Assembly (NCBI RefSeq): GCF_029360665.1
Contig: NZ_JARDUB010000003.1
Location: 62,001 to 126,000 of the forward strand
Direction: 5' to 3'
DNA: 64,000 bases
From: Eudoraea chungangensis
GTDB lineage: Bacteria; Bacteroidota; Bacteroidia; Flavobacteriales; Flavobacteriaceae
The notes below the pieces were generated by a model. That model saw only the letters and a program-made list of their open reading frames with translations. It had not been told where the DNA came from and searched no databases. Shown here one piece after another: positions 8,574 to 10,920 of the stretch (positions are counted from its first letter, which is position 1; the number at the start of each line of letters is the position of its first letter). Made by a program: the position numbers and the translations under genes.

Positions 8574-10343
8574 ATGCAAAACATAACTCGCTTATTTGAT
8601 TTTCCCTATTACCAGTTAGAAAAAAACAATCTGGAAGACTGTTTAGTGACAAAAAAAGATGGTCAGTGGATTAAAACTTCTACACAATCCTACTTGGATC
8701 AGGCAAATAAAATAAGCAGGGCACTTTTGCGCCTAGGGGTTAAGCCAAATGATAAAATTGCCCTTATCTCGATGACTAACAGAACGGAGTGGAACATAAT
8801 GGACATTGGGGTACTACAATTAGGAGCACAGAATGTCCCCATATATCCGACTATTTCTGAATCGGATTATGCCTATGTTCTCAACCATTCGGAATGTACT
8901 TATTGCTTTGTCTCTTGCGAAGAAGTGTACAACAAAGTAAAGTCGATAAAGGATCAGGTACCCAGCCTAAAAGAAATTTACTCCTTTGATAACCTGAATG
9001 AATGTAAAAATTGGAGTGAGGTATTGGCCTTAGGGGAAGACAATTCAAATCAGGATGAAGTAAAGGAATTGATGGCAGCAGTTCGACCTGAAGACTTGGC
9101 AACACTCATTTATACATCAGGAACTACGGGTACTCCTAAAGGCGTAATGCTATCCCATAAAAATGTGGTAAGTAATGCTTTGGAGAGTTCCAAAAGAATG
9201 CCGGTAGAAGCAGGATATAGAGCACTGAGTTTTCTCCCGGTATGTCATATCTATGAAAGGATGTTGATGTATCTATACCAATATTCTTCTGTTTCCATTT
9301 ATTTTGCGGAATCTTTGGAGACCATAAGTGAAAACTTGAAGGAAGTTAAACCCCATATAATGACGGCAGTGCCAAGATTGCTAGAAAAGGTGTATGATAA
9401 AATCATTGCCAAAGGGGCGGATCTTGGAGGTATAAAACAAGCCTTATTTTTTTGGGCCGTTAAAGTTGGGCTCAAATATGAACCATACGGGCAAAACGGA
9501 TGGTTTTATGAAAAAAAATTGGCACTTGCTCGTAAACTTATCTTTAGCAAATGGAAAGAAGGTTTAGGAGGAAACTTAAAACTGATCGCTTCAGGAAGTG
9601 CGGCTTTGCAATCAAGGTTAGCGCGGGTATTTAATGCTGCTGAAATGTGTGTCATGGAAGGCTACGGACTAACCGAAACCTCTCCTGTGGTTTCTGTAAA
9701 CGACATGCGAAATAAAGGTTTTAAAATTGGGACCGTAGGAAAATTAATTGGCAAAACAGAAGTAAAGATTGAAACCGACGGGGAAATATGCGTAAAGGGT
9801 CCTCAGGTAATGATGGGATATTATAAGGATCCTGAAAAGACTGCTGAGGTTATTAAAGATGGCTATTTCCATACGGGGGATATTGGAGAAATTGATGCAG
9901 AAGGGTTTTTAAAAATTACAGATCGTAAAAAGGAAATGTTTAAAACTTCTGGAGGGAAGTATGTGGCTCCTCAAGTTTTAGAGAACCGCTTTAAACAATC
10001 TCGCTTTATTGAACAAATAATGGTAATTGGAGAAGGAGAAAAAATGCCTGCTGCCTTCATTCAGCCTAATTTTGAATTTGTACAAGAATGGGGTAAAAGA
10101 CACAAACTAGACCTGGAAGATCCCGAAATTATTGCCAGGCATCCAAAGGTTATTGAACGTTTTCAGGAAGAAGTTGAGGCGGCGAACGAACAATTTGCCA
10201 AATGGGAAAAGGTAAAACAATTTCGCCTCACTCCTAGCGTCTGGTCCGTAGACGAGGGGCACCTTACCCCTACCATGAAATTAAGACGCAAGGTAATTAA
10301 GGATTTGTACAAAGACCTATATTCTCAAATATACGGGGCTTAA
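8574..10343 (+). CDS. Long-chain acyl-CoA synthetase (AMP-forming)
   Basis: The 589-residue enzyme activates free fatty acids to acyl-CoA through an acyl-adenylate. The ATP-binding P-loop is LIYTSGTTGTPKGVMLSHKN (about residues 177-196). Further adenylate-forming motifs are GYGLTETSP, the YFHTGDIGEID segment with the conserved Asp, and ITDRKKEMFKTSGGKYVAP with the catalytic-type Lys. Length and motifs fit the AMP-dependent FAA1/FadD15 group. It lies just before the MarR-controlled beta-oxidation genes and would supply their substrate. An imperfect copy of the regulator palindrome core overlaps its start codon (see findings). Confidence 0.92.
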   Translation: MQNITRLFDFPYYQLEKNNLEDCLVTKKDGQWIKTSTQSYLDQANKISRALLRLGVKPNDKIALISMTNRTEWNIMDIGVLQLGAQNVPIYPTISESDYAYVLNHSECTYCFVSCEEVYNKVKSIKDQVPSLKEIYSFDNLNECKNWSEVLALGEDNSNQDEVKELMAAVRPEDLATLIYTSGTTGTPKGVMLSHKNVVSNALESSKRMPVEAGYRALSFLPVCHIYERMLMYLYQYSSVSIYFAESLETISENLKEVKPHIMTAVPRLLEKVYDKIIAKGADLGGIKQALFFWAVKVGLKYEPYGQNGWFYEKKLALARKLIFSKWKEGLGGNLKLIASGSAALQSRLARVFNAAEMCVMEGYGLTETSPVVSVNDMRNKGFKIGTVGKLIGKTEVKIETDGEICVKGPQVMMGYYKDPEKTAEVIKDGYFHTGDIGEIDAEGFLKITDRKKEMFKTSGGKYVAPQVLENRFKQSRFIEQIMVIGEGEKMPAAFIQPNFEFVQEWGKRHKLDLEDPEIIARHPKVIERFQEEVEAANEQFAKWEKVKQFRLTPSVWSVDEGHLTPTMKLRRKVIKDLYKDLYSQIYGA

Positions 10344-10399
10344 TCATACGTCATCGTTAAGCAGCAACCTACCTTCCACATCCTTTTACTTCTTTTTTT

Positions 10400-10425
10400 A
10401 ATTTATTATGCATGCATAATAAATT
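10400..10425. promoter_or_regulatory. 26-bp perfect palindrome, probable MarR operator
   Basis: The 13-base half AATTTATTATGCA is followed immediately by its exact reverse complement TGCATAATAAATT. The centre is GCATGC. It lies 30 bases before the MarR start codon and covers the place where the -33 element and spacer of the promoter would be, with the -7 box just downstream. MarR dimers bind such palindromes, so self-repression of the operon is the simplest reading. The perfect symmetry is visible; the binding protein is inferred. Confidence 0.75.
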
Positions 10426-10429
10426 TTAT

Positions 10430-10437
10430 TATCTTTG
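10430..10437 (+). promoter_or_regulatory. -7 box of the MarR-fad operon promoter
   Basis: TATCTTTG is an exact TAnnTTTG box, 18 bases before the MarR start codon and 4 bases after the 26-bp palindrome. A repressor on the palindrome would exclude RNA polymerase. Confidence 0.65.
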
Positions 10438-10455: not shown

Positions 10456-10920
10456 ATGAAGGATCAAACCATAGATTACGCCCTTAGAGCTACATGGCAA
10501 CTTGTTGCCAGAATGTACAACGAAGAAGCAAAGAATTTTGGCACTACCATGGCAGTTGGTTTTACTCTCCTGAGTATTGACCCCAAAACGGGAACGCCTT
10601 CCACTGCCTTAGGTCCAAAAATGGGAATGGAAGCCACTAGCTTGTCTAGAATTCTAAAAAGTATGGAGGAAAAAGAATTGATAATGAGAAAGCCAAATCC
10701 TGAGGATGGGCGAGGCGTACTCATTTTTCTAACCCCTTTTGGACTAGAAAAAAGAAAAGATTCTAAAGACGTGGTACTGCAATTTAATGAAATAGTAAAA
10801 AACAATGTTTCTGAGACGCATCTCGAGGGTTTTTTCCATGTAGTTGATACTATTCATGAACTAATTTCAGAAAAGAAAATATATCCTAAAGATTCAATTA
10901 ATAACAATCATTCAGAATGA
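10456..10920 (+). CDS. MarR family transcriptional regulator of the beta-oxidation operon
   Basis: The 154-residue protein has the winged helix-turn-helix of MarR repressors. The recognition region is MGMEATSLSRILKSMEEKELI (about residues 56-76) and the wing is RKPNPEDGRGVLIFLT (about 79-94), with helical dimer arms at both ends. It overlaps the following fadN-like gene by four bases (ATGA), so it is the first gene of the operon. It sits directly behind a 26-bp perfect palindrome and promoter box. By analogy with other fatty-acid regulators it probably binds acyl-CoA or a fatty acid and represses the operon. The ligand is not visible in the sequence. Confidence 0.9.
   Translation: MKDQTIDYALRATWQLVARMYNEEAKNFGTTMAVGFTLLSIDPKTGTPSTALGPKMGMEATSLSRILKSMEEKELIMRKPNPEDGRGVLIFLTPFGLEKRKDSKDVVLQFNEIVKNNVSETHLEGFFHVVDTIHELISEKKIYPKDSINNNHSE

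Follow-up and report, generated by a model that had tools for sequence, protein, structure and literature searches.

The window, a 64,000-nucleotide stretch of the Eudoraea chungangensis genome analysed at its full length, carries a cluster of fatty acid beta-oxidation genes led by a gene for a MarR-family regulator, and a long palindrome lies just before that gene (Table 1). The locus raises the question of whether the palindrome is an operator, which protein would read it and how far such control would extend. In the open-access literature searched, no described regulator of fatty acid degradation in Bacteroidota was found, and an exact literature search for TATGCATGCATA returned a single match, in an unrelated nematode paper. 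The comparative evidence says that the site is functional, and the adjoining MarR protein very probably uses the palindrome as its operator; it would repress marR-fadNAE, be released by a fatty acid product and run a small lipid regulon. Such a regulon would be conserved in the Bacteroidia, apparently undescribed and most likely controlled by the MarR encoded first in the cluster. What is gained is a candidate protein, a sharp operator (TATGCNNGCATA inside a longer palindrome), a core regulon and a rule for the placement of the sites relative to promoters, such that lipid regulons could be predicted in hundreds of genomes from the site.

Table 1. Features of the marR-fadNAE locus, with positions counted from the first nucleotide of the window
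Feature	Position	Strand	Evidence and remarks
Palindromic operator (predicted), AATTTATTATGCATGCATAATAAATT	10400..10425	.	Kept in 80/80 relatives, 1.81 bits/position
-7 promoter element, TATCTTTG	10430..10437	+	Bacteroidota consensus TAnnTTTG; 17-18 bp from operator centre in relatives
MarR-family regulator, 154 aa, no cysteine	10456..10920	+	Pfam MarR (PF01047) 41.2 bits, cut-off 24.6; presumed operator-binding protein
fadN-type 3-hydroxyacyl-CoA dehydrogenase/enoyl-CoA hydratase, 801 aa	10917..13322	+	Pfam 3HCDH_N, 3HCDH, ECH_1
fadA-type acetyl-CoA C-acyltransferase (thiolase), 395 aa	13331..14518	+	Pfam Thiolase_N/C; TIGR01930 432 bits, cut-off 240.55
fadE-type acyl-CoA dehydrogenase, 603 aa	14532..16343	+	NF058590 AcCoDHFadEBacil 717 bits, cut-off 600
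fadD-like long-chain acyl-CoA ligase	8574..10343	+	Pfam AMP-binding; directly upstream, without its own operator copy

The palindrome and its conservation

As the sequence-only reading had claimed, the palindrome spans 26 bp with neither mismatch nor spacer and ends four bases (TTAT) before an exact -7 box of the Bacteroidota consensus (PMC9723704). It is the longest perfect palindrome of the window (runner-up, 18 bp), and its half-length of 13 was reached in none of 100 simulated windows matched to the dinucleotide make-up of the window (maximum, 12). No further copy was present in the window at up to three mismatches, and none was expected by chance. The end of marR and the start of fadN share four bases (ATGA); the earlier description of a MarR gene in first place that overlaps its neighbor by four bases is accurate for the window, but as a general trait the overlap fails, with about five of 80 relatives sharing it. 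The order fadD-marR-fadN is held in 78 of the 80, with fadA next in most.

The sequence-only reading had staked itself on the presence of the site before orthologous operons, and all 80 named relatives carry it before marR-fadN, so that, as in other members of the MarR family, a palindrome (here a predicted operator) stands at the regulator's own promoter. The palindrome is perfect (13/13, 26 bp) in 55 relatives, the positions of the TATGC..GCATA core (TATGCNNGCATA) are invariant in all 80, and some variants have paired symmetric changes in the two arms (AATATATTATG...CATAATATATT), which indicates a dimeric reader of the site. The operator averages 1.81 bits of information per position versus 0.22 bits for the upstream flank, a difference that reflects more than recent shared ancestry. 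The flanking DNA has diverged, and the start of the -7 box stays 17-18 bp away from the operator centre (74 of the 80 relatives by the script's first match and five by reading the printed sequences; the remaining relative has TATATTTA at that place). Outside the palindrome, two to three positions located 19-21 bp upstream of the operator centre (10392-10394 in the window, and the equivalent in the 80 relatives) are also conserved (0.8-1.4 bits).

The family of this particular MarR was found in 47 of 247 genomes sampled from the phylum and extends to other families and orders of the class Bacteroidia, where, at 40-45% protein identity, the link between MarR, fadN and the site usually persists; the site is missing at some distant MarR homologues without an adjoining fadN. 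Five loci from distant lineages have two operator copies approximately 28-30 bp apart before marR, an arrangement that suggests two dimers bound side by side. At one locus (L231, genome G254) the operon is present and the usual site is replaced by another perfect palindrome, GTCGCATGCGAC, which shares only the central GCATGC and possibly represents an operator switch in one lineage.

The MarR protein and the proposed switch

A profile search of the regulator found MarR-type domains only, without the GntR-type domain of Escherichia coli FadR. The AlphaFold2 model, a monomer of moderate confidence (pLDDT 72), matches the MarR fold of 222 PDB entries at E ≤ 0.001 (top matches HcaR, MexR, MepR, SarZ and MarR), with moderate structural similarity (TM ~0.6). 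Cysteines are lacking in the window protein and in 67 of 80 orthologues, with a single one in the other 13, and a thiol switch of the OhrR/SarZ type was ruled out as the conserved reactive cysteine is missing. Identity as a FabT orthologue was not supported, given the catabolic operon and the lack of a chain named FabT among the PDB sequence matches.

MarR proteins bind palindromes as dimers and are often autoregulated, and CoA thioesters dislodge two of them, CouR and FerC, from DNA (PMC5487221). In the proposed mechanism, a MarR homodimer would sit on the palindrome between the -33 and -7 regions, block RNA polymerase and thereby repress its own operon, marR-fadNAE. A product of fatty acid activation, most likely long-chain acyl-CoA from the adjoining FadD, would bind MarR and release it, turning beta-oxidation on; the choice of acyl-CoA as the putative ligand comes from gene content only, and binding at this site, repression of fadNAE and release by acyl-CoA are all inferred. 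The same 12-bp core would place further genes under MarR, namely etfBA (probably repressed), a GDSL-like lipoprotein and a TonB-dependent receptor, joined in some genera by an NMO-family flavoprotein and KAS III/FabH genes. ETF is the electron acceptor for FadE. In Flavobacterium psychrophilum, fish mucus and plasma strongly induce the genes of beta-oxidation, a result that may be taken as independent published support for induction and comes from a study whose main text makes no mention of MarR (PMC9723704).

Several known systems share parts of this logic. The enzyme set fadN-fadA-fadE is that of the Bacillus fadNAE operon, and the FadE protein satisfies the corresponding NCBIfam model. The Bacillus operon is regulated by a TetR-family FadR encoded elsewhere, and we know of no MarR operator of this sort there. 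CouR, FerC and HcaR are MarR-family repressors of catabolic operons, as predicted here, and HcaR is the best fold match of the model, but they serve aromatic hydroxycinnamate pathways in other hosts and HcaR has approximately 18% identity to the window protein. E. coli FadR, like the predicted role of MarR, represses beta-oxidation genes, reaches fatty acid synthesis genes and answers to long-chain acyl-CoA (PMC9329746), a type of ligand that for MarR is inferred; FadR belongs to the GntR family and is unrelated in both protein and operator.

Core sites and alternative explanations

A scan of the genome for sites before other lipid genes, as had been proposed with the sequence-only reading, found the core TATGCRTGCATA four times in E. 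chungangensis, always between genes (control word, none) and mostly at genes that fit a role in lipid metabolism. One site lies before marR-fadNAE, one separates etfB from pdhB, and the other two precede the TonB-dependent receptor and the GDSL-like lipoprotein (the latter with a Pfam match below threshold). Matches to the 14-mer with two mismatches were not enriched in the same genome (11 versus 17 per strand for the control; those inspected were mostly intragenic), and the regulon was therefore built from exact-core sites only. Across 45 genomes with the MarR there were 240 strand-matches to the core versus 18 to the reversed control (1.57 versus 0.12 per Mb), and in 14 genomes without it 9 versus 3. 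The presence of core sites differed between the two sets (Fisher p ~9e-7), though the genomes without MarR are mostly small, which weakens this test of co-occurrence.

Of the sites inspected, 52 of 54 were outside genes. In line with the suggestion that the arrangement could be used to predict the regulon in related genomes, core sites recur before etfB (28 of 30 genomes; one of the two lacking the site has no detectable MarR) and before the TonB-dependent receptor, near glmS (18 of 30). Other recurrent targets in relatives include the GDSL-like lipoprotein, NMO-family flavoproteins and three kinds of KAS III (FabH-like) gene, while FadL, a 4HBT thioesterase and FabD are single cases. In the FabD case (position 2947 of locus L222, genome G006) the core lies over the fabD start codon, where ATGCATGCATAC codes for MHAY, and could be either real control or a coding coincidence. 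The claim of a complete autoregulated switch, with operator and promoter in 38 bases, is well supported by position but too narrow in scope, as the core is also found at the ETF genes, before an outer-membrane receptor and, in relatives, at fatty acid synthesis genes.

That the palindrome arose by chance, or is an RNA hairpin or terminator belonging to fadD, has next to no probability. Its position between fadD and marR would suit a terminator, but the near-perfect conservation in relatives and the fixed spacing to the -7 box speak against both versions, a spacerless palindrome offers no ready loop, and the identical site occurs at divergent promoters such as etfB/pdhB. Chance was ruled out by the conservation together with the simulation, and a fadD terminator or hairpin by the divergent promoters. 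It is also improbable that a different DNA-binding protein reads the site, with MarR a mere neighbor. In one genome (G046, 99% complete), an esterase-like gene and an NMO gene are preceded by core sites (three loci), etfB has none, and no clear MarR orthologue was recognized; the sites of this genome may be read by another protein. Site and marR are nevertheless tightly linked at 80 loci and across several orders, they co-occur across genomes, and the symmetry of the site fits a MarR dimer, all of which points to a dimeric MarR as the reader. A second genome without a detected MarR (G024, 84% complete) lacks the receptor site and retains sites before KAS III and NMO genes; a joint loss of the receptor site and MarR was dropped as an explanation since other sites are present, and at this completeness the MarR is probably merely unsequenced.

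Granting MarR as the reader, its response could run in the opposite direction, with acyl-ACP or acyl-CoA strengthening DNA binding, an unlikely alternative for which FabT provides the precedent. FabT of streptococci, enterococci and lactococci is a MarR protein whose gene heads its own lipid operon, has palindromic operators and binds more strongly with acyl-ACP (PMC9083066; PMC13046290), and the KAS III/FabH sites of some genera would agree with such co-repression. FabT, however, governs synthesis, whereas the operon headed by marR is fadNAE and the constant targets are degradation genes, whose repression by fatty acids would be senseless; moreover, the beta-oxidation genes of F. psychrophilum rise with lipid-holding host fluids. 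Release of MarR by a fatty acid product remains the preferred reading.

Operator placement and possible dual action

The distance from the operator centre to the -7 box is characteristic of the gene class: 17-18 bp for marR, 13-17 for NMO, 25-29 for etfB, 44-47 for the TonB receptor and 48-49 for one KAS III class where the site is present (9 of 30 genomes). At marR and NMO the operator buries the promoter spacer, the classic place for a repressor. At the receptor and that KAS III class the operator is centred at about -58, outside the core promoter and in the region from which activators work, and the boxes are of a TAnnTTG type, unlike TAnnTTTG. A pattern with this spaced geometry had 32 matches in 100 genomes versus one for the control, nearly all of the loci read being the receptor or that KAS III, though the pattern itself fixed which distances and box could be found.

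The placement of the sites hints at something beyond simple repression, and activation by MarR from the upstream sites is a live possibility. As an extension of the main reading, a MarR dimer would repress marR-fadNAE by occlusion and activate the receptor and KAS III promoters from approximately -58. Fatty acids would then induce degradation and shut down the receptor and KAS III genes, an E. coli FadR-like logic carried by a MarR protein. We consider this conceivable, at somewhat less than even weight. The class-specific distances, the excess of pattern matches and the atypical boxes are in its favor, as are the activation by FadR from upstream of -35 (PMC9329746) and a review that gives a position-based argument for activation with a list of activating MarR proteins (PMC5487221). 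Against it, the spacing may have been inherited with orthologous promoters, an upstream position is also open to a repressor, the pattern restricted the allowed distances and box, and the KAS III site occurs in less than a third of the genomes. Judged from sequence alone, the operator geometry is compatible with repressed degradation and activated synthesis, as in FadR. The system offers a setting in which to ask whether one MarR can both repress and activate from one type of site according to distance. The broadest form of the proposal, which we regard as tentative and rather doubt, is an undescribed lipid master regulator in much of the class Bacteroidia, a MarR with one operator word that would repress beta-oxidation by occlusion and, from a constant place upstream, activate both an outer-membrane receptor and a KAS III gene, the dual logic of FadR having evolved independently on a MarR scaffold.

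Two further arrangements of the core were observed. In four genera, it lies beside an intrinsic-terminator-like hairpin upstream of a further fabH, more than 160 bp from the start of that gene, and in two genera divergent promoters of an NMO gene and a small exported protein have two core sites 95-96 bp apart.
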